A DNA stretch of 64,000 nucleotides from Candidatus Sumerlaeota bacterium. GTDB lineage: Bacteria > Sumerlaeota > Sumerlaeia > MWCT01 > JAUWMI01. The DNA is taken from positions 1 to 64,000 of the forward strand of contig JAUWMI010000022.1 of NCBI GenBank assembly GCA_030613245.1, given 5' to 3'. Positions 1,485 through 19,891 of the stretch are shown in pieces; the first letter of the stretch is position 1, and each line of letters opens with the position of its first letter. The notes below the pieces were generated by a model that worked only from the letters and a program-made list of their open reading frames with translations, was not told the DNA's origin and searched no databases. Made by a program: the position numbers and the translations under genes.

Positions 1485-3251
1485 CTATTCCATGAACTCG
1501 ATTAGCCTCTTGCGCCTGCTGGGATGGCGCAGCTTATTCAGGGCCTTGGTTTCAATCTGTCGCACTCGCTCGCGCGTAACGTTAAAAATTGTGCCGACCT
1601 CTTCGAGGGTACGCGGGAAGTCACTGCCGCCGATGCCGAAGCGTAAGCGCAGCACCTTCTCTTCTCGTTCGGTCAGCGTTTTCAGCACTTTCTCAATTTG
1701 TTCCTGCATCAGGCGATATGCTGTGGCAGTGACTGGCGACGTCGCTTCCTGGTCTTCAATAAAGTCTCCAAAGTGGCTGTCACCGTCTTCGCCAATTGGT
1801 GTCTCAAGCGAAATGGGCTGCTGCGCGATCTTAAATACACGGCGGATTTTCTCCACCGGTATCCCCATCTTTTCAGCGATCTCTTCGGGCGTCGGCTCAC
1901 GGCCCAGTTCCTGAACCAGGAAACGCGACACGCGCGACAGCTTGTTGATTGTCTCGATCATATGCACGGGAATTCGGATGGTGCGAGCCTGATCCGCGAT
2001 GGCGCGCGTCACTGCCTGGCGAATCCACCAGGTGGCGTACGTACTGAATTTGTAGCCGCGCTGGTACTCGAACTTATCAACCGCGCGCATGAGGCCTATG
2101 TTGCCCTCCTGAATCAGATCCAGGAATTGCAGTCCCCGGTTGGTGTACTTCTTCGCAATACTTACCACCAGCCTGAGGTTAGCCTCGACCACCTTCATTT
2201 TTGCTTCGTGCGCTTCTTTTTCGCCCTTATTAATGGCGATGACGATATCGCGCAATTCATCGTACGTGTTACCAGCCTCTTTCTCGAGCCGCTTAATCAG
2301 GTGCTGGGCATTGCGTACTTGCTTGTCCATCTTGATAAAGTCGTCCAGATTGAACCCAAACTTCCTTTGAAGGGCACGTGCCTCAGGACTGTTCTTCCTG
2401 GTGCGTTTTACGATCCGCCTTAGCTCTTCCTCGCTCAACATAGTCTTTAGAATGATTTCGCGGATTTCACGATTTGCTTCGTCGAGCTTGATGAAAATCG
2501 TGCGGATCTTATTAGCGATCTGTTCGATGATGCTGAAATTCAGATCAACTTTGAGGAGGTGCTGGTAAATCTGTGCCCGTTTCTCCGTGATGTCCTTGAC
2601 GATCTTCTCTCGTTGCTTCTGTGATAATGTCGGGTCTTCCAACACATCCAACTGCTTGAGCACCTCGTTGTAGAGATTGAGAATGATATCGAGGTTTTCC
2701 AGGACGAACTTCACCATTCGGTTTCGCTCGTCAATGTCATTTTCATCCACATTTGCCCGGAGGATGTCATTCAGATTAAAAGCTCCGCTTTCGATACGTG
2801 CGTAGATTTTCTTTAGTTCGCCAGCGGTAGCACTGGCACGCGAAATGGCTTCCGTGATCTCGTGGCGCCCTTTTTCAATCTGCTTGGCAAGCGCAACTTC
2901 CTCTTCGCGCGTCAACAATGGCACCTTGCCCATTTCCATTAGGTAGAGCCGTACGGGATCATCAATACGGGAACTCTCGGCCGCGGTCGTAGTAGTTTCC
3001 TCTTGTATCGCCACCATTCCCGCACTGATGTCTTGGCCTTCTCGCTCGGTCGCTTCCACCGCACCCTTTAAATCTTTCTCGTCGTAGACGCCAATATGCA
3101 GCTCTTCCAGCTCTTCCAGAAGGTTTTCCATATCTGCCGACGTAATATTATCCGGAAGATTCTGGTTGATCTCTTCGTACGTTAAATGCCCTTTTTCCTT
3201 ACCAAGGTTAATCAGACGCTCAAATTCAGAGAACTTTGTACTGCTTTTCAT
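1485..3251 (-). CDS. rpoD: RNA polymerase primary sigma factor RpoD (sigma-70)
   Basis: This is the housekeeping sigma factor, about 588 residues. Region 1.1 is at the N-terminus. Region 1.2 ([11 protein letters not shown]) begins near residue 98 and is followed by a roughly 200-residue non-conserved region. Region 2, with the core-binding and -10 recognition helices ([34 protein letters not shown]), spans about 355-435. Region 3 is about 440-515. Region 4, the -35-binding helix-turn-helix ([18 protein letters not shown]), is at the end. ATG 3251 is preferred because a GGGA lies 9 nt upstream; a GTG 15 nt further upstream sits almost on the AAGGAG sequence. dnaG lies upstream in the same orientation, the classic dnaG-rpoD macromolecular synthesis arrangement; rpsU is not visible. 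Confidence 0.97.
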
Positions 3252-7359: not shown

Positions 7360-8178
7360 ATGAAAATTCGTTGTCCCCAGTGCGGAAGCGATAACACAAT
7401 TGATCAGAAGGATGTCATCTACATCCAATGTGCCTTTTGTGGGTCATCGCTCTATTTCGCTCGCGGACAGGCGGTGAAGCACTACTTCCTCGTTCCCAAC
7501 ATCCCTCCCAAAACGGTGCCTGGCCTGCTCCAGACCTGGTGCAAGGAGCAGGAGATCCATGGTAAACTCGACATAACGCAGCTGGAGCGTGTGTACGTTC
7601 CGGTGTGGAAGATAACGTTCAACGACGGTACGAGTCGGGTGGTCAGTGCATCACTTCAATATTTTAGCGGTCTGAGCGACCTGGGAATTCCTTCGGGCAG
7701 TTTGCGCTATTTTGAGCCTCATCTGCTTCAGGAGGAGCAGGTTCTGGACGTAGATATAGACCTTGAGCCCGTGCTGGCCCGGATAGATCAAAGATCGGAT
7801 ATGATCAGCCGGAATGTCCAGGATGTTTTTCAGGTGCCGGTTGAGGAGAAAGGGCAAGACAGTGATACAGAGACCGACATCCGAGAAGCAATCCTGTTTC
7901 ATCTTCCATTTTACATGATTGATTACACGTATAATGGCACGCCGTATACAGTAACGATGGAGGCAGCCACTGGCCGGTTTATTGCCTCAGAGACACCCCC
8001 GTCGTTTAAGGATATCCGTACTATGACGTATGGCTTGATTACAGTGGCCTCGCTATTGGTGTTTGTGGTTGAAGGTTTGCTGATACCCGATTTCTGGCTC
8101 GCTGTAGCCGTTGGAGGATGCACGTTCCTGGGATTTTATCTTCCGGTCACGATCTATCATACGTTGCAGCAGCGCTAA
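7360..8178 (+). CDS. Zinc-ribbon membrane protein 1 of a three-gene set
   Basis: I do not recognise the family. The 272-residue product starts with a four-cysteine ribbon (CPQC at residues 5-8, CAFC at 24-27). Then come a segment ending VYVPVWKITFNDG, and a second similar unit FHLPFYMIDYTYNGTPY followed by EAATGRF. Two hydrophobic helices lie near the C-terminus (YGLITVASLLVFVVEGLLI and the FWLAVAVGG to LPVTIY stretch). ATG 7360 has GGAAAGG at good spacing; the open frame upstream lacks protein-like character. It is the first gene of a plus-strand set with the genes at 8240 and 9546. All three share the ribbon and a beta-rich Y-x-P-x-W unit, so the ribbon plus duplicated beta unit looks like a modular fold anchored to the membrane. 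Confidence 0.75.
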   Translation: MKIRCPQCGSDNTIDQKDVIYIQCAFCGSSLYFARGQAVKHYFLVPNIPPKTVPGLLQTWCKEQEIHGKLDITQLERVYVPVWKITFNDGTSRVVSASLQYFSGLSDLGIPSGSLRYFEPHLLQEEQVLDVDIDLEPVLARIDQRSDMISRNVQDVFQVPVEEKGQDSDTETDIREAILFHLPFYMIDYTYNGTPYTVTMEAATGRFIASETPPSFKDIRTMTYGLITVASLLVFVVEGLLIPDFWLAVAVGGCTFLGFYLPVTIYHTLQQR

Positions 8179-8239
8179 CACAGCCACAACCGGAGGCCTG
8201 GGCTGAATTCTTAACGTAGGGAATTACTCATAGAGAACA

Positions 8240-9412
8240 ATGCGTGTAGAAGCTTCAGATGAACGTAATGCACTAACGGTGCTCAGCTGCAGCTCATGCG
8301 GGGGCGCTCTGGATTTTGGCCGCGGCTCGCATATTGCTCGCTGTTCCTACTGCAGTACCGCGCATCTTGTTATTGATCCAACCGGTGTGTTGCAATTTTA
8401 CTATCCCGCGCTCCAGACCCAGCAAGATGCACTACGCTGCATCTATGCAAAGGTTTTTCTTGATTCCGATGTCAACCAAGGGGTGAGCAAAAAGGCAGTG
8501 GTCCGGGATATTCAGCTTCTCTACGTGCCGTTTGTTGAATATCGCGCGAAACTAGTAATGAAAAAGCTGAAGAGAGGCGTTGTCGAGGATCCATATCGGC
8601 TTCACCAGATTACGAATTTCAGAGAAGATACAGAGGTGCGCTACGAGCGCTACGCACGCTACGAAGTCGGCTGCGACTTCAAGGAGATTCTCAACATTCC
8701 GATTGGCTGGGTGCGCGAGTTTGGCGAGTCGATTGACCAGCTCCGCGAGCCCGATCCTCAGCACCGCGTGTGTCTCTACCCGTATGACATCCAGAAGATG
8801 CAGCAGCAAGGACTGGTCTTTAACCTCAACAAGTCGCTCACACACTATATTGCTCAGTTCAAGAAGATCGAGCGCGATTTCGCTGATCATGATACGATCA
8901 TATTCGATAAAAATATGCGGGTGCTCTATTATCCCCTGTGGCGGGTGGTGTATGAGCACCGCGGGGATCTCTACACGGTCTATGCGGACGGTTTGCGTCC
9001 GACAATTATCCGGGCCAGTGCGCCGGAACGCCAGCGCTCACCAGTCTTCTCACTGCTTCTGGCAACGTTTCTGCTTGGGCTTGCAATATCACAGACGATC
9101 CATCACAGCCATGTATTGCTCAGGTGGATGGAGCAAGGAGTGGTGAATCCAATATATCGCTGGATGCTCGTTGGCACTTGTTTGCTCGGTTTTCTTGGAT
9201 TCATTACCCTGCTCGGCTTTCTCTCGGTGGCATGGACTCAGTTTCGCTACACAGGAAAGGTGGTCTTTGAACGTACTCAGAAGCAGATTATCCGTATCAA
9301 TAAACCTCCTCAGACGTTTTTGGAACGCGTGGTGGATGTTGCAATTGACATTTTTGGGAAGATTCTGGATCTCATTGTGAAGATCCAACAGAGACGCTTT
9401 CGATATTGGTGA
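8240..9412 (+). CDS. Zinc-ribbon membrane protein 2 of a three-gene set
   Basis: This 390-residue protein of unknown function has a four-cysteine ribbon (C17xxC20, C35xxC38). A first beta unit (IQLLYVPFVEYRAKL) follows. A roughly 120-residue middle region carries ERYARYEVGCDFKEI and YDIQKMQQQGL. A second unit reads LYYPLWRVVYEHRGDLY followed by YADG. Two hydrophobic helices follow at about 275-292 and 310-335. After the second helix comes a 50-residue tail of alternating basic and hydrophobic residues. It is the largest and best-developed member of the trio. The gap to the previous gene is 61 nt and to the next 133 nt, which suits co-transcription. No enzyme motif is visible. Confidence 0.78.
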   Translation: MRVEASDERNALTVLSCSSCGGALDFGRGSHIARCSYCSTAHLVIDPTGVLQFYYPALQTQQDALRCIYAKVFLDSDVNQGVSKKAVVRDIQLLYVPFVEYRAKLVMKKLKRGVVEDPYRLHQITNFREDTEVRYERYARYEVGCDFKEILNIPIGWVREFGESIDQLREPDPQHRVCLYPYDIQKMQQQGLVFNLNKSLTHYIAQFKKIERDFADHDTIIFDKNMRVLYYPLWRVVYEHRGDLYTVYADGLRPTIIRASAPERQRSPVFSLLLATFLLGLAISQTIHHSHVLLRWMEQGVVNPIYRWMLVGTCLLGFLGFITLLGFLSVAWTQFRYTGKVVFERTQKQIIRINKPPQTFLERVVDVAIDIFGKILDLIVKIQQRRFRYW

Positions 9413-13359: not shown

Positions 13360-13548
13360 CACTGCTGGTACCTTTCTGTCCATTGATCCTCGCACGTTCA
13401 TAAATACTCATTACAAGAAGCGCGAGGTAAACTCAGTAAGCAAGATTACATCTAGCATGTGTGATTGTGCCTTGCCATGCAAAACTGTATGTGAACCCCG
13501 CGCCGAATTGCAAGCCAGGAAACGCCGGGCGGTTTCCAATGCAAATGG

Positions 13549-13623
13549 CGTCCCCAATGGGATTCGAACCCATGTTGCAGGATCGAAAATCCTGTGTCCT
13601 AGGCCTGACTAGACGATGGGGAC
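13549..13623 (-). tRNA. tRNA-Glu (anticodon UUC)
   Basis: The minus strand folds into a full cloverleaf. The acceptor is GTCCCCA/TGGGGAC, the anticodon stem CAGGA/TCCTG with loop TTTTCGA (anticodon TTC), and the T-arm carries GGTTCGAATCC. The discriminator is G and an encoded CCA lies at 13546-13548. It stands about 17 nt from the tRNA-Lys scar, so before the island arrived the order was tRNA-Lys then tRNA-Glu, probably on one transcript. The island now separates this tRNA from that upstream context by 5.5 kb. Confidence 0.95.
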
Positions 13624-13639
13624 GCCGGGCAAAAACTTG

Positions 13640-13679
13640 GTGAGCGTGGCAGGAGTCGAACCTGCGACCAACGGCTTAA
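13640..13679. other. Attachment-site scar, outer copy (tRNA-Lys 3' fragment)
   Basis: These 40 nt are identical to the 3' part of the intact tRNA-Lys at 19128-19167, running from the anticodon loop to the 3' end. The rest of the tRNA is absent. This is the expected direct repeat left at the far end of an element that integrated into a tRNA gene. It marks the left edge of the island. Confidence 0.85.
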
Positions 13680-13784
13680 GATTCTTACAAATACATTAAA
13701 GCACCATCAGATGAACTAAGGAATAATGGCAAAAGTGGCTTCCAAAAATCAAGGGGAAAATGCACCTTGGCTTTACAATCGTGA
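13680..13784 (+). pseudogene. 34-codon coding remnant next to the attachment site (unit A)
   Basis: Directly after the att core is an open stretch of 34 codons ending in TGA, with IKAPSDELRNN at its middle and LALQS at its end. It has no start codon, and an in-frame TAA lies within the core just upstream. The same stretch follows the second scar (15797-15901). By my count 15 bases differ between the copies, 11 of them at third codon positions of this frame, and 8 codons differ silently against 5 that change the residue. That pattern implies the frame was once translated and selected. I read it as the severed C-terminal end of an element gene, family unknown. Confidence 0.5.
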
Positions 13785-13852
13785 AGTTGGAGCTGACCAT
13801 TATGGTGTTTTAGAAATAGAAAGTGATAAAAGCCTGAGCGGGATTATGAGGA

Positions 13853-14599
13853 TTACAGCTTATCAAGCAAGGTAAACATATGTTTAATGTTTGAGCCCTT
13901 CAAATAGTTTTTGAAATCCCATTTTATTTGCATAGCAATGACTTTAGCCAAATTTGGTGTCCATATTTTTTCTTGTTCGCCCAAATATCTAGTCACCTTG
14001 AGTACGAAAGAGCCACTCAATCCTGGTGCTCGTGGTAACTTAATCTTGGACCCGCTAGAAGTTTCTATATTTTCTAGTTCCATAGGGTACGCGCAGTAGA
14101 GGAAATCTTTATCTGAAGGCTTTTTGCTATATGGAATGGTGTGATAGCTCATCGGCATATTGTAAACACCATTCTCTCTTTCATCCTTAAGCTGTGACGG
14201 ATATCCGCAAACCACTAGATTTGTATTGTCGAAGGAATACGCGCTGAAATCATCAATCAACTCGAAATCTTTAAATTCGTACGCAGCGGGCAACTCGCAC
14301 TCACCGATAACCTCTATAATGCCTATGTCAGTTTCATCATCAGTAAAAGCTGCATAGCGGAGCTGTTTATCATAGATTCTCTTATTTTTCTGAAGAATTA
14401 TATAGCGGCCGCTTTGCATCTGAAAAAACTCGTCCGCCACGTGCCTACAGGTCGCAATGAATACACGACCATCATACCTGAGAAGGTTTCCTGTCCCGAT
14501 TGCACGTACATAACAGCTTCTTGACTTCACCCACAGATTAAGCGCGTGTCGTGTTTGTCTATCGAGTTGGACTTGTTTGTCAGGCAAATCTTTGCCCAT
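13853..14599 (-). CDS. Trypsin-like serine protease domain protein (island unit A)
   Basis: This 248-residue protein has no signal peptide, so it is probably cytoplasmic. It carries a recognisable chymotrypsin-fold triad: His53 in FIATCRHVAD, Asp91 in DETDIGIIEV and Ser195 in PGLSGSFVL. GTGNLL sits where the family usually has its first beta strand. Proteins of this kind often occur beside mobile elements and in defence loci, but the target here is unknown. The C-terminal half is repeated as a truncated copy at 15970-16272. Base composition is more AT-rich than the flanking chromosome, which fits its island location. Confidence 0.7.
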   Translation of the reverse strand: MGKDLPDKQVQLDRQTRHALNLWVKSRSCYVRAIGTGNLLRYDGRVFIATCRHVADEFFQMQSGRYIILQKNKRIYDKQLRYAAFTDDETDIGIIEVIGECELPAAYEFKDFELIDDFSAYSFDNTNLVVCGYPSQLKDERENGVYNMPMSYHTIPYSKKPSDKDFLYCAYPMELENIETSSGSKIKLPRAPGLSGSFVLKVTRYLGEQEKIWTPNLAKVIAMQIKWDFKNYLKGSNIKHMFTLLDKL

Positions 14600-14774
14600 A
14601 TCATTGCCGTTAATGGCTAGTATTTATGCCGAACTGATTATACGGTCCAGTATAAGACCTTAAGAGCGCCAGTTGTGTGCCTACACTTGTGGGCGCTAGT
14701 GTGCCCATTTCTCATCTGTTCCATGTTTTGTTTCATTCAGTCCCAACGATTTCTGCATACGTACTACAACAATC

Positions 14775-14850
14775 GTGGCAAGAGTTGTATGGCAAAATCA
14801 AGGGAAAACGCACCTTGCCTTTGCAGTGCAGGTGTCGATTAGGAGCGATT
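14775..14850 (+). repeat. Decayed third copy of the island 'KAPSDELRNN' segment
   Basis: The stretch around GGCAAAATCAAGGGAAAACG and the following bases aligns by eye with the segments at 13725-13800 and 15850-15915, with at least one single-base deletion and an early stop. It lies beside the 3' end of the gene at 14864, in the same relative position as the other copies beside the protease genes. No tRNA-derived core is attached. Confidence 0.4.
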
Positions 14851-14863
14851 TATTAGGTGAGAA

Positions 14864-15592
14864 TTAGTACCGACTGCGGACCTCTCCTAGATTCTTGCTG
14901 AGCTTTTCTACATCTCCCCAATACCCAGTGTTAAAAAACTTATGAATCTTCATCGAGGCATCCACTAGTAGAGCTGCGGTTGGGTCGATATAGGCAAGGT
15001 AACTTGCTAGCGGCTCTTCTTTGTAATAGATGATGGAGAAGTCATTGCCATGTATTTCTGTATGCCTATCTACCAGAGCCTGAATGTTGCAATGTACATA
15101 GTTGCTCACGTAACTGTAGAATGACCTATATTCGTCCGCCATTCCAGCACGGTCAAAACGCTCATAGACATTTAGAGGGACGTATCCTTTATCCTTAAGT
15201 TTTGCGAGTTGTGTTTCATGCCTCTTTATTTCCGCGTCGAGGTCCTCCAGCTGCGATAGGTCCTTAAGATACGGGTTTGGCTTGTTCTTGGCTTCTTTGA
15301 GAATCTTTATCCATTGGTATTCGAAGATAGCCTCCATGTGGTAGCCATAATCTGCTTTGGCATGGAGGTTCTTCAGCTCAACATACGCTTCAAGTATTGA
15401 GCGGAAAATGGGAGGCACGCCAGTTCCGAGGTTGCGTTCAATTAATCTGATGAGGCATCCACTAAGCTCAATCAAGGTTCCATATAGCCCTACCAAATAG
15501 AGCTGCCGAGGATGCTTATGGTCAAGCCGAATATTTTGTGAGAGCCGGATGCATTCATCATGCAGGTTCTTGAGATATCTAAAAATCTCCAT
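14864..15592 (-). CDS. Hypothetical protein, DUF5677-like
   Basis: This 242-residue, mostly helical, soluble protein resembles the DUF5677 group in outline. It has an N-terminal helical region, the segment PPIFRSILEAYVELKNLHAK, a coiled-coil-like stretch (LEDLDAEIKRHETQLAKLKD) near the middle, and a later YVSNYVHCNIQALVDRH. DUF5677-type proteins are of unknown function and are common in variable regions. It shares unit A of the island with the trypsin-like gene, 264 nt away and in the same orientation. The family assignment is from memory of the motif pattern and is uncertain; the reading frame itself is convincing. Confidence 0.6.
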   Translation of the reverse strand: MEIFRYLKNLHDECIRLSQNIRLDHKHPRQLYLVGLYGTLIELSGCLIRLIERNLGTGVPPIFRSILEAYVELKNLHAKADYGYHMEAIFEYQWIKILKEAKNKPNPYLKDLSQLEDLDAEIKRHETQLAKLKDKGYVPLNVYERFDRAGMADEYRSFYSYVSNYVHCNIQALVDRHTEIHGNDFSIIYYKEEPLASYLAYIDPTAALLVDASMKIHKFFNTGYWGDVEKLSKNLGEVRSRY

Positions 15593-15756
15593 TTTTGCGT
15601 TCTTGTGCGTAATTTTTCTGTCTAACTACTGCTTATCTCGCGCGTCCAAAACGCGTCCAAACCTTGTATCAAACCATCCGTTTTTGTCCTATTTGACCGA
15701 GACAATGCAAGAAATTAGTTGCTATATATGTCATTGAAACTATTGAAATTGCGCTA

Positions 15757-15798
15757 GTGAGCGTGGCAGGAGTCGAACCTGCGACCAACGGCTTAAAA
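15757..15798. other. Attachment-site scar, inner copy (tRNA-Lys 3' fragment)
   Basis: These 42 nt match the intact tRNA-Lys at 19128-19169 from the 3' end to just past the anticodon, then diverge. It divides the island into unit A (left) and unit B (right), as two successive integrations at the same tRNA would leave. Confidence 0.85.
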
Positions 15799-15901
15799 TT
15801 CTTATAAACAAATTAAAGCACCATCAGATGAACTAAGAAATAATGCCAAGAGTGGCTTACAGAAATCAAGAGGAAAATGCAGATTGGCTTTGCAGTCCTG
15901 A
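15797..15901 (+). pseudogene. 34-codon coding remnant next to the attachment site (unit B)
   Basis: This is the counterpart of 13680-13784, with the same length, frame and stop. It differs from that copy mostly by silent third-position changes. It lies between the inner scar and the truncated protease copy. Confidence 0.5.
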
Positions 15902-15969
15902 AGTTGGAGGTGACTATTACATTGTTCTAGAAATAGAAAGTGATAAAAGCCTGAGCGGGATTATGAGGA

Positions 15970-16272
15970 TTACAGCTTATCAAGCAAGGCAAACATCAGT
16001 TTAATGTTTGAGGACCTTAGAAAGTTTGCCTCATCCCATTCTATTTGCATAGCAATGACTTTAGCCAAATCTGGTGTCCAAATTTTCTTCTGCTTGCCGG
16101 CAAATTTAGGCACCTTGAGTACAAAAGAGCCGCTCAAGCCTAGTGCTGGTGGCAGCTTAATCTTGGACCTGTTAGCAGTATCTATATTTTCTAGTTCCAT
16201 AGGGTATGCGTAGTGCAGGAAATTTTCATCTGAAGGCTTTTTGCTATCAGGTGCAGTGAAATGTTGGAGCAA
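15970..16272 (-). pseudogene. 5'-truncated copy of the trypsin-like gene (unit B)
   Basis: The 100-residue frame matches the last 95 or so residues of the gene at 13853 (shared SKKPSD, YAYPMELENI, GLSGSFVLKV, IWTP, LAKVIAMQI and a common LLDKL end). It keeps the serine motif but has lost the regions that carry His and Asp. The break falls near 16255, six to twenty bases from the stop of the PLP-enzyme gene, so the two genes were joined by a deletion or recombination. An in-frame ATG exists, but a protein without two thirds of the triad is unlikely to be a protease. Confidence 0.75.
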
Positions 16273-16278
16273 ATACGT

Positions 16279-17397
16279 TCATTGACTGCATCCTCTAAGA
16301 TCAATTAGCCATGTGCCTGTTACTTTTTCACCTCTTGTAAGAAAATATCTGTCAAATAAATTGATAGTTGGGTCACAATGAGAAGTGATCAGTTCTAGGA
16401 CAGTGCCAATCGAGGGGAGCTTTGAATTGTCGAAGCATGTAATCTTACCGTATTCGTCGCCAAACCAGTCATACTTCAATCCGGAATTTTCAGGAACGAT
16501 AACTTGTGGCTTTCCACCATCTTGGTAGAGTGCCTTTAGTCCTGCGTCTACAGTCACAAAACTTTCGTGGTTGACACTAATAACCGTTGTGAGCAGTCGT
16601 AAGGCTGGGCCAAATGATTCAAATCGCGTACCCTTATCATCTGACTCGATTTCAAGATACTCTGTGTCCATGCACACATACGATCCGACCTGAAGCTCCG
16701 ATACCTCGGGAACAGCGAGATCAATATCAAACGTTCCTGTACCTGAAGCGCTAAAGATCGTGCAGGTTGGTACGGAGGTGTTCAAATCGCGGAAAACATG
16801 AACAGCTTCCTGCAGGCACTGATGAGAAGTGTGCTTTCTCTTCTCATAAGAACGAATGTGTTGGACATGACCTGCGTATGCCTGAATTCCCTGAAGACGC
16901 AGGTTTGGACAGGAAACAATTTGCTCTGCCAAAGCTAGTGCATCGGACGGCCTCGCTCCAGTCCGATGCATGCCGACATCCACATCAAGGAGCACGCCCA
17001 TGGACATTCTTCTGGCACGTAGCGCCGTGTCGAGTAAAGCAATATTGCCGGGGTGATCCACAACGACCATCAGGGAAGAAGCCGTTGTTAGCAGATTGAT
17101 GAGTTTTTCTACTTTACTTGGTGTTACAACCGGCCCGGTGATGAGGATATTTTCAAGCCCTGCTTTTACCAATGCCTCAGCTTCAGAGACTTTTGCGGCA
17201 CAAACACCGATTGCCCCAACCTCAATTTGCCTCTGGGCTAGGGCCGAGCACTTGTGCGTCTTGACATGGGGACGGATATTTTTGCCGGCATGCTCAACAA
17301 CAGCTTGCATCTTCTTAAGGTTTCGCTCAAGGACGTCCACATCCAGAACCAAACAAGGTGTTTCAAGGTCAGATTTGTATTTCTCTGTAGTAGTCAT
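16279..17397 (-). CDS. PLP-dependent D-threonine aldolase / D-serine dehydratase-like protein
   Basis: This fold-type III (alanine racemase N-terminal domain) enzyme has about 372 residues. The PLP lysine is in RPHVKTHK near the N-terminus. GVLLDVDVGMHRTG and the SASGTGT phosphate-binding segment follow. Near the C-terminus is the metal-binding motif TSHCDPTINLFD typical of D-threonine aldolase and eukaryotic-type D-serine dehydratase. The expected reaction is cleavage or dehydration of a D-beta-hydroxy amino acid. The start is uncertain: ATG 17406 is only 3 nt from GGAGG and ATG 17397 is 12 nt from it; both precede the family-like YKSDLETPCLVLD. It is cargo of unit B, and its relation to the other island genes is unclear. 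Confidence 0.88.
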   Translation of the reverse strand: MTTTEKYKSDLETPCLVLDVDVLERNLKKMQAVVEHAGKNIRPHVKTHKCSALAQRQIEVGAIGVCAAKVSEAEALVKAGLENILITGPVVTPSKVEKLINLLTTASSLMVVVDHPGNIALLDTALRARRMSMGVLLDVDVGMHRTGARPSDALALAEQIVSCPNLRLQGIQAYAGHVQHIRSYEKRKHTSHQCLQEAVHVFRDLNTSVPTCTIFSASGTGTFDIDLAVPEVSELQVGSYVCMDTEYLEIESDDKGTRFESFGPALRLLTTVISVNHESFVTVDAGLKALYQDGGKPQVIVPENSGLKYDWFGDEYGKITCFDNSKLPSIGTVLELITSHCDPTINLFDRYFLTRGEKVTGTWLIDLRGCSQ

Positions 17398-17478
17398 CTG
17401 ATTCATCAACCTCCAACGGCGCTCTTCAGCCGTGGCGTCCTCGCCGTCGGCTGGAAGAGTTGGTTGGGGCATCCCCGT

Positions 17479-18000
17479 TCATTTCATATTCTTCTCGATC
17501 GTGTCCCATTTGTCCCGGTATGGGCGCAGCGTCTTTTCCGCAATGGCCGAGTGCAGGGAATCCCACCGCTGGGGGCGGACTCCATCATGCCTTTGTAGGA
17601 ATGCGATGTGTCCTTTGATCAGCAAGTCGCGCAGTCTCTGCCATGTGAGAATGTAGAACCGATCTTGTCCGTCCTCCTCAATCTTGACGAACGTCACGAT
17701 AAGCCGTCGCACCGGACAAGACCTTGGTTTCCCGACGACCTGACGTTTGCCGTCGAACGCGATGTCACAGAACTGCCGGATGTCGCCGAACTGCCAAGAT
17801 GCACCCCGGCTGGCCTTGACTTGGACGGAGACGTGTCTGCCGGTTTCGTCGGACGCGATGATGTCGTAATGAGGGACGTTGCCGGTGAACGTGGTAGCGA
17901 TCAGCCCGCGGCGCGAGAGCTCCGCCGCGACGAGGTACTCACCGGTTTGCCCGACAAGCTTGTTGCTGCGTCCTGTTCCCATTATCTCGTCGTGCCCCAA
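17479..18000 (-). CDS. PD-(D/E)XK nuclease-fold-like protein (island unit B)
   Basis: The 173-residue product has a helix with Glu (GQTGEYLVAAELSRRG), then Asp in PHYDIIASD, then VQVKAS, which reads as a PD-(D/E)XK-type core with Gln in place of the second acidic residue. The remainder is basic and Trp-containing. Similar small proteins with this core occur in mobile elements, some without proven nuclease activity. It is markedly more GC-rich than the genes to its left in the island, as is the adjoining RusA-like gene (15 nt upstream), so the two probably arrived together. Confidence 0.55.
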   Translation of the reverse strand: MGHDEIMGTGRSNKLVGQTGEYLVAAELSRRGLIATTFTGNVPHYDIIASDETGRHVSVQVKASRGASWQFGDIRQFCDIAFDGKRQVVGKPRSCPVRRLIVTFVKIEEDGQDRFYILTWQRLRDLLIKGHIAFLQRHDGVRPQRWDSLHSAIAEKTLRPYRDKWDTIEKNMK

Positions 18001-18015
18001 CGACCCGCGCAGAAA

Positions 18016-18459
18016 TCAGCGGGCTCGCTTATACAGCCGGCGATCCTTGCTGATCTGCAGAGGCCAGCGCCGCGCCCTGTAGGGTCGAATCAACAGCCTG
18101 CCGCCCACATCCTTCCGGTACTTCTTGGGGATGGGTTGTTTCTCCATTACCACGCGGCAGACCTGGTTGTCGTTCTCGATTAGCCGCTGTTTGGCGCGCG
18201 CCGATTTCGGGCCCCCAAAACGTCCCTGTAGAGCATCCAGGATGTCCTTGAGCCGGTTGTCAATATCATGAATGGCGATGCGCTTCCCCTTCTTAAGGTA
18301 AAGGAGTACGACAACCTCAAGCTTGTCATCGGGGCCAAAGCGAGATCCCGCTTTGGCCTGGGCACCCAGGACACTGGCCAGGATCCTCTTTCGCCACCGC
18401 CTCCGATTCTTCTCGTAGGTCGGGATGTTCGCGGTGAGAGTTCGGCGAGTCTTTGCCAT
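18016..18459 (-). CDS. RusA-like Holliday junction resolvase family protein
   Basis: This 147-residue basic protein carries the RusA signature: an acidic cluster with Asn and Lys (HDIDNRLKDILDALQG, residues 64-79) and a later IENDNQV (94-100). In RusA these aspartates and the lysine form the metal site that cuts four-way junctions. RusA family genes are typical of prophages and integrative elements. The motif's second acidic group is ENDNQV where DDxxV is more usual, so activity is likely but not certain. The C-terminus is strongly basic. Confidence 0.75.
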   Translation of the reverse strand: MAKTRRTLTANIPTYEKNRRRWRKRILASVLGAQAKAGSRFGPDDKLEVVVLLYLKKGKRIAIHDIDNRLKDILDALQGRFGGPKSARAKQRLIENDNQVCRVVMEKQPIPKKYRKDVGGRLLIRPYRARRWPLQISKDRRLYKRAR

Positions 18460-18680
18460 TCACGGACCTCATGAGGCAACTGGCGCATCAAACTCAACGG
18501 GTGGTCTACTCAGGTAACACCGTTGCTCTTCGCGCGGTCTAACTACTGTATATATAGTTCTGTATAAAACCATATAGACAGCGGTTTGCTTCTGTATAAC
18601 ACTCAATAATGCATGCGATCTTACTTTGCATAAGTCTCTTATATTAAGCTCCATATGCATAAATTCCCCTTGAAGCTCCT

Positions 18681-18707
18681 GCGTCTTATACAGTCTGCAT
18701 AAGACGC
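18681..18707. repeat. Hairpin in the island right end
   Basis: Perfect 9-bp inverted repeat GCGTCTTAT / ATAAGACGC with a 9-nt loop. It may be structural or a leftover element feature. Confidence 0.5.
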
Positions 18708-18739
18708 ATTCTCACAGGGCCTTTCAGAGCAAGTCCACC

Positions 18740-18839
18740 GGACTTCGTACCCCTTTTCTCCACCATTCAAAACGTGTGTATAAATCATAGTGAATTTAGC
18801 ACCCTTATCCATATATCCTAATCCCAAAGGTGCTATCAA
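18740..18839 (-). pseudogene. Tyrosine recombinase (integrase) C-terminal relic
   Basis: The minus strand encodes TMIYTHVLNGGEKG (Tyr codon at 18780-18782). This is the C-terminal phrase of XerC/integron-type integrases, in which the tyrosine before THV is the catalytic nucleophile. A broken LGxxD-like segment precedes it (LGYMDKGAKF). Upstream the frame is closed and the catalytic Arg/His box (HxLRHxxA-type) cannot be found. The relic sits beside tRNA-Lys, where an integrase gene normally lies, and accounts for the scars. Confidence 0.6.
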
Positions 18840-19128
18840 GCTTTTTTCTTCTTTTGGAATCGGGGCGAGAGCATTCCATAGTGCTTTCCTCCTTTGACTA
18901 TTTCGATCTGGCTAGTCAGTTGCCAGCAAACGATGTAAGAGTCTTTAAGCCGCGTGCTTAGCCCTAGCAATATTCAAAACAAGGCTAGATGAAAGTAAAT
19001 AGAGTGCTAAATTCGCTAGCTCAATGAGGGGATCTTCGCATGGCAAGCAGGCAAGATTCTGGATTTGCAATTATGAGAAGTCTACATGAGACGAAAGCAC
19101 CGGATTGGTATAATTAAAAATAAAAAAG

Positions 19129-19201
19129 TGAGCGTGGCAGGAGTCGAACCTGCGACCAACGGCTTAAAAGGCCGCTGCTCTACCGACTGAGCTACACGCC
19201 C
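19129..19201 (-). tRNA. tRNA-Lys (anticodon UUU), island integration site
   Basis: The minus strand folds completely. The acceptor is GGGCGTG/CACGCTC, the D-arm GCTCAGTCGGTAGAGC, the anticodon stem GCGGC/GCCGT with loop CTTTTAA, and the T-arm GCAGG/CCTGC. The discriminator is A, and CCA is not encoded, unlike in the Glu and Ser tRNAs here. That suggests the present 3' end was supplied by the integrated element. Its last 40-42 nt are repeated at 13640 and 15757. Confidence 0.95.
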
Positions 19202-19209
19202 AAACTTGC

Positions 19210-19242
19210 CCGCCTGCGGCGGACTTGTCCGCCTCAGGCGGA
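19210..19242. repeat. CCGCCTGCGGCGGA / TCCGCCTCAGGCGG inverted repeat
   Basis: Two 14-nt arms, complementary at 12 of 14 positions, separated by 4 nt. It lies just upstream of tRNA-Lys on that gene's strand. Confidence 0.6.
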
Positions 19243-19619
19243 GTGGACTATTTCGTTTGTACATCCCCCCCTATCCCGTAAAACAGAAAGGAATGATACG
19301 CAGCCCCTGTCTGGGTTGTCAAATCTTTTTCAAGGCGCAACTATTCTTCTGCTCCTTAGGTTGGAAGCGTTCTTGGTGACAATTAAAAATGGCGAAAATT
19401 TTCCGCAACTATTCGTCATTTGTTTTTTCTTCTTTTTGCCATTCTTCTTTTGCGCTGCAACGAGTTTTTTCACACAGATTGAGCAACGGGGATGCCTTTT
19501 CTCGGCCACTGGTTCTGTCTTTTAATGTGGTGCCTGAGCTGAGTGCGCTAAAAGATTGGTTCTTGGAATTTCATGGTGGGGGGGGTAATAGTATTTATTT
19601 GGTGATCACGTTATCAGTT

Positions 19620-19686
19620 GTAGAGGCGGGGTTACCCCGCCCTGGGGCGAGGTTTATCCGCCTCAGGAGGGAGACCTCGCCCCTAC
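19620..19686. repeat. Long GTAG...CTAC hairpin repeat (family of 1346)
   Basis: The unit begins GTAGAGGCGGGGTTACCCCG and ends ACCTCGCCCCTAC. Nested stems are visible: GGCGGGG/CCCCGCC and GGGGCGAGGT/ACCTCGCCCC. It is a longer relative of the GTAGGGGCG palindromes. Confidence 0.65.
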
Positions 19687-19891
19687 AAAGTCATGTCGCA
19701 AACCCTATATGCATTCTTAAATAGTGCCTAAAGGCCGACAGTTTTACTGACAGATGGTCCACTACAGATTGCGAAGAGCTAAAAGATTCACGTTGACAAA
19801 TTACACGAGTCTCTCCATTTTCTGCTATGTGGAGTTTTGCAAAACCCTTCCTGGACATTGATCATAAGGTAATTTCAAGGAGGTTGTTGTC

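Follow-up and report, generated by a model that had tools for sequence, protein, structure and literature searches.

Tyrosine integrases often insert mobile DNA at tRNA genes and restore these genes in the process, with the displaced fragment left as a mark of the insert's far end, and about half of the catalogued integration sites are centred on the anticodon (PMC4383910). Tandem arrays are known as well: the Islander catalogue contains 125 arrays of at least two islands and 4 of at least three in 2168 genomes (PMC4383910). A decayed element that retains its attachment (att) sites, known as a cis-mobilizable element (CIME), can take up a second element at the att site of the gene end, which gives a tandem (PMC5704250); the examples of such accretion include a tRNA-Lys case in S. 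agalactiae (reviewed in PMC5704250, where Pavlovic et al. 2004 is cited). In Dehalococcoides, islands are stacked at one RNA gene, ssrA (PMC3146451). Here we analyse a 5.4-kb island at a tRNA-Lys(TTT) gene in a 64,000-nt stretch (the window) of contig C25 from the draft genome (4.29 Mb, 97 contigs) of a Candidatus Sumerlaeota bacterium, which has no same-family relative among the genomes searched. C19, C30, C37, C52, C67 and C86 denote other contigs of the same genome.

We consider the island to be a result of serial site-specific insertion into one tRNA-Lys(TTT) gene followed by integrase loss, that is, a CIME-like tandem accretion, and give this reading a probability of about 0.87. Its framework is formed by three copies of the tRNA-Lys 3' part and the two units between them:

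13546–13623, minus strand: tRNA-Glu(TTC), the former immediate downstream neighbour of tRNA-Lys (ARAGORN, and adjacency in relatives)
13638–13679, minus strand: displaced original tRNA-Lys 3' end, with an encoded CCA at 13638–13640
13680–15756: left unit (2.1 kb)
15757–15798, minus strand: second tRNA-Lys 3' part, without CCA (reads CTA)
15799–19127: right unit (3.4 kb), adjoining the intact tRNA-Lys
19128–19201, minus strand: intact tRNA-Lys(TTT), with an element-derived 3' end without CCA (reads CTT; ARAGORN)

The copies match exactly, in 40 of 40 nt at 13640–13679 and in 42 of 42 nt at 15757–15798, which together with the ARAGORN call bears out the original observation of copies at 13640, 15757 and 19128, the last one within an intact gene. 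This gene scores 76.2 bits against Rfam, the top tRNA score of the genome. Because exact fragments of the 42-mer reach at most 11 nt in the rest of the window, and a query composed of core and arm matched just three places across the whole genome, a chance origin of the copies is excluded. No further tRNA-Lys 3' copy was found in the genome-wide search.

Since the leftmost copy carries CCA, with CTA in the middle one and CTT in the intact gene, the original chromosomal end is the copy adjoining tRNA-Glu, and the working tRNA-Lys gene uses an element-supplied 3' end. The absence of CCA from the intact gene had been put forward as a sign of its element origin, and this argument holds. About 10 of the 43 tRNA genes of the genome have no encoded CCA, therefore its absence alone is weak evidence; what counts is the CCA on the displaced leftmost copy, a point that had been missed. 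The tRNA-Leu(TAA) gene on C86 supports the argument by showing the same reversal: the intact gene (159351–159440) has no CCA, and the displaced 60-nt copy (141426–141485), located 18 kb downstream of it, has one.

The segment C86:141426–159440 encloses type II secretion-like genes, a sigma factor and a sulfatase, as well as tRNA-Lys(CTT)-like fragments at 141823–141845 and 156176–156222; no tyrosine recombinase was matched on C86. Several CCA-less tRNA genes of the genome end in AC followed by T, like the element-derived ends, and are possibly fossils of other insertions.

Joining position 13679 to 19168 rebuilds an identical tRNA-Lys, followed by CCA and, 14 nt later, by tRNA-Glu. The joined sequence was used as a query, and the loci of 23 relatives from the same phylum, including the same order, were checked by ARAGORN. 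In 11 of these 23, tRNA-Lys(TTT) lies directly before tRNA-Glu(TTC), with gaps of 8–130 nt and without scars between the two genes. Of the 23 relatives, 22 have an encoded CCA on the Lys gene (all but one of the 11 with the pair). The suggestion that Lys and Glu were formerly neighbours is thus upheld; of the spacing of about 17 nt that went with it, the adjacency stands and the figure becomes 14 nt after CCA. The locus shows several features of a tRNA-gene (tDNA) island: an intact, regenerated tRNA, a 3' fragment displaced without change of orientation and an uninterrupted target in relatives. With a CIME tandem it has in common the att sites flanking each unit and the lack of integration genes.

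tRNA-Glu(TTC) is the sole TTC gene found in the genome and is now situated 5.5 kb from the tRNA-Lys promoter region; it may rely on transcription out of the left unit (window 13624–13900).

We infer that a tyrosine integrase was the agent. At least two successive insertions of this type would have occurred in the anticodon-loop/3' half of tRNA-Lys(TTT), and the tRNA 3' copy brought by each element would have rebuilt the gene, shifting the previous 3' end downstream. The first insertion would have moved the CCA end to 13640, and the second element would have been integrated where the first unit met the regenerated gene, the right unit being probably the last to arrive. Both units would later have lost their integrase and become remnants similar to cis-mobilizable elements. 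The composition of the units also speaks for insertion: they are A+T-rich (39–43% G+C in most parts, compared with 50% for the window), with the exception of the RusA block (59%).

Stacked tRNA-gene insertion is already a well-documented kind of island, and it is unusually clear here as only the displaced original end keeps CCA. With the accretion of CIMEs, integrative and mobilizable elements and integrative and conjugative elements (PMC5704250), the locus shares a single target gene, the loss of integrase and transfer genes, and att sites in the form of direct tRNA 3' repeats. It differs from CIME accretion in that no conjugation or mobilization gene is seen in the island, the parent is likely phage-like, the units measure only 2–3 kb, and the host belongs to a lineage without same-family reference genomes. 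Similarly to the tDNA islands of Islander (PMC4383910), which are also known in tandem, it has a regenerated gene and a displaced fragment as its ends and a crossover in the anticodon region. However, Islander demands a tyrosine integrase gene of its own in every island, which is not present here, so the tRNA-Lys array would be missed, and catalogues requiring an integrase would overlook such arrays in general. The Dehalococcoides ssrA islands (PMC3146451) resemble it in their serial stacking, in the 3'-end repeats between them and in the absence of an integration module from many of them, but they involve a serine recombinase, a transfer-messenger RNA (tmRNA) target and 20-bp repeats. The encoded CCA serves as a natural tag distinguishing the original tRNA end from the element-supplied one, by which the polarity is fixed without a close relative. 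For a lineage that has no same-family reference genome, the result is a clean and testable record of how insertions followed one another.

The relation between the units was addressed through their sequence next to the scars and the content of the left unit, which is listed below together with the distal end of the right one:

13680–14130, unstranded: left-unit distal end, with homology to 15797–16247
13853–14599, minus strand: 248-aa protein with a weak trypsin-like peptidase match (PF13365, E 0.045, under cut-off)
14776–14825, unstranded: third shared-arm copy, degenerate (78% identity, E 8e-4 over the genome)
14864–15592, minus strand: 242-aa DUF5677 protein (Pfam PF18928, E 2.9e-21)
15620–15626, minus strand: GTTAGAC motif, 27 nt upstream of the DUF5677 start codon
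15640–15659, minus strand: TGGACGCGTTTTGGACGCGC, putative integrase arm-type repeats
15799–16247, unstranded: distal end of the right unit; homology with the left unit stops at 16247

The segment 13640–14130 aligns with 15757–16247 over about 490 bp at about 85% identity (about 88% over the first 300 nt, lower beyond), and both the ATTCTTA start and the AAAGCACCATCAGATGAACTAAG run fall within this shared arm. The homology of about 500 bp behind the scars, noted earlier with both of these marks, is therefore real. The claim built on it, that related elements were inserted serially, stands for the serial insertion (scars, CCA polarity, empty site), and relatedness is limited to the distal ends. 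The degenerate arm at 14776–14825 had escaped notice; owing to it, the left unit may itself represent two units, this piece being possibly the distal end of a third one. Among the differences between the shared arms, 10 of 14 fall at third positions of one plus-strand frame. Despite this coding-like pattern, a split gene spanning the core was rejected, as that frame has a stop inside the core.

The 20-mer TGGACGCGTTTTGGACGCGC, close to the middle scar, is made up of a pair of TGGACGC repeats. An identical 20-mer occurs beside the tRNA-Gly core on C52, and related repeats adjoin tRNA-Gly on C86. The TGGACGC repeats look like integrase arm sites.

Several observations weigh against serial insertion with subsequent integrase loss. 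Neither an integrase nor a clear remnant of one is present in the island, where tblastn with the C52 and C67 integrases gave chance matches only. The units are related at their distal ends only: their tRNA-proximal ends have no detectable homology, although related attP sites should share both arms. Finally, the number and order of insertions rest on one genome, with no genome of the same family for comparison.

A likely donor type is indicated by the genome itself, which has four tyrosine-recombinase matches, two of them adjoining tRNA cores. On C67, an integrase gene (16590–17792) lies 22 nt before a 47-nt tRNA-Lys(CTT) core; on C52, an integrase gene (7785–8915) is located upstream of a 50-nt tRNA-Gly(GCC) core, in an element that also carries terminase, helicase, tail-fibre-like and replication genes. 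Comparison with the latter clarifies the composition of the right unit:

15970–16272, minus strand: 100-aa C-terminal remnant of a protein homologous to the 248-aa one
16279–17472, minus strand: Ala_racemase_N + D-ser_dehydrat protein, D-threonine/3-hydroxy-D-aspartate aldolase-like
17415–17508, minus strand: 94-bp block, 96% identical to C52:10549–10642, with an attC-like hairpin; homology ends at CCGTT
17479–18000, minus strand: 173-aa PD-(D/E)XK-like protein (36% identity across 58 aa with the C86:11954–12454 protein)
18016–18459, minus strand: RusA-like resolvase, 77% identical in protein (79% in DNA) to that of the C52 element
18537–18543, minus strand: GTTAGAC bordering the RusA block; GTAGTTAGACCGCGC occurs also at C52:10056–10070
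18549–18775, minus strand: 227 bp, 86% identical to the DNA directly downstream of the C52 integrase gene
18787–18952, unstranded: dispersed repeat, also on C86, C19, C30 and C37

The right unit is a mosaic, one end of which is shared with the left unit and the other with the C52 tRNA-Gly element. As the RusA, 227-bp and 94-bp pieces are common to C52 and the right unit, the latter is best read as a C52-like element minus its integrase, and a phage-like donor type is probable. The island, whose nearest relative, the C52 element, is phage-like, was found to have neither a relaxase nor a conjugation gene. Within the 227-bp piece lies a palindrome (18681–18707) similar to the core site of a recombinase, of which the island and C52 hold the only two copies in the genome; its 20-nt core was not found in viral contigs. 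Viral contigs likewise gave no relatives of the 248-aa, 242-aa and RusA proteins or of the C52 integrase, and genome contigs gave none of the 248-aa and RusA proteins. For RusA, the class yielded just a distant match, from one genome, and phage records yielded none; no PADLOC defence family was matched. The true start of the Ala_racemase_N + D-ser_dehydrat gene is probably inside the open reading frame, near 17400. The idea that C86 holds the remaining half of the C52 prophage was rejected, since the genes by its tRNA-Gly are not phage-like by eye.

The C52 segment 7785–10898 comprises the integrase, a lipoprotein, RusA, an attC-like hairpin and TGGACGC arm repeats, with gene blocks between GTTAGAC motifs. 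Where the island and C52 differ, their homology stops at GTT motifs (GTTAGAC/GTTRRR). The extra lipoprotein gene of C52 sits exactly between two GTTAGAC motifs, and in the island, which has no such gene, GTAGTTAGACCGCGC is joined directly. In both loci the RusA block has the same end, a stable hairpin followed by CCGTT; the attC-like hairpin folds 3.9–4.5 standard deviations below shuffled sequences. The G+C content at the C52 block edge jumps from about 0.39 to 0.58. Integron cassettes have this appearance. As in integron cassette arrays and the clusters of attC sites lacking integron integrases (CALIN) described with IntegronFinder 2.0 (PMC9024848), the blocks are delimited by GTTRRRY-like motifs, a hairpin is present and an integron integrase is missing; in contrast to these, the island has only one convincing type of attC-like hairpin and no array, and the genome has no integron integrase.

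Several other explanations can be offered for these data. If there had been a single insertion, and ordinary recombination had then duplicated its distal end (core plus arm) to give the second scar, the distal 490 bp would be the sole extended similarity between the units, as it is. We regard this as quite improbable: the arm copies differ at roughly 10–18% of sites, with indels, the left one adjoins the intact 248-aa gene and the right one its truncated relative, and therefore they have long been separate; moreover, arm-type repeats of its own adjoin the core of the left unit. Hardly credible is an assembly or binning artefact, for which only the draft state of the genome speaks, since a single contig of 69 kb carries all the copies, their flanks have diverged, and the restored site agrees with the relatives.

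A further, unlikely possibility is that the units were never autonomous, being satellite-like or similar to miniature inverted-repeat transposable elements, and owed their movement to an integrase acting in trans, for instance that of C52. This would suit their very small size, the lack of any integrase remnant and the arm-type repeats in common with the C52/tRNA-Gly sites. However, C52 targets tRNA-Gly, not tRNA-Lys, and the right unit keeps DNA that adjoins the integrase in C52 and has one gene truncated, which looks like decay. An exchange of integron-type cassettes, in which hairpin-ended blocks bounded by GTTAGAC/GTTRRR moved between tRNA elements and shaped the island's interior, seems doubtful to us. 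It is suggested by the RusA block, whose two ends stay the same in two different settings, by the C52/island difference consisting of one segment exactly between two GTTAGAC motifs, by the G+C jumps at the edges and by the hairpin stability. Nevertheless, simple deletion between 7-bp repeats would also be permitted, just two loci are concerned, each with one good attC-like hairpin (the other gene ends fold poorly and are not attC-like), and the genome has no integron integrase, the tested recombinases reaching at most 73 bits with a cut-off of 265. In the phylum, integron integrases gave only partial or decayed sub-cut-off matches, in three genomes with no visible attC array. Perhaps, though we hold it for rather improbable, the tRNA-inserting phage-like elements of this lineage carry integron-like cassettes (G^TTAGAC-gene-hairpin) by their integrase and swap them among tRNA loci in the absence of any recognised integron integrase, the blocks staying stacked behind tRNA scars after integrase loss. 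If true, the cassette-like edges would link tRNA islands with integron-type cassettes.

A run of small minus-strand genes at C86:1–8000 is accompanied by 58-nt repeats and is possibly a cassette array; one pair (3187–3244 and 7856–7913) is 97% identical, and another (884–941 and 2359–2416) lies just past stop codons. The dispersed repeat family of the right unit has members of 110–160 nt with 67–77% identity (C86:12478–12640, C19:12880–12991, C30:1381–1532 and C37:52925–53069). A mir-933 match at 19616–19691 was ignored, being far under the gathering score. The region beyond tRNA-Lys contains G+C-rich inverted repeats of the CCGCCTCAGGCGG type and a long hairpin (19206–19241, 19616–19691).

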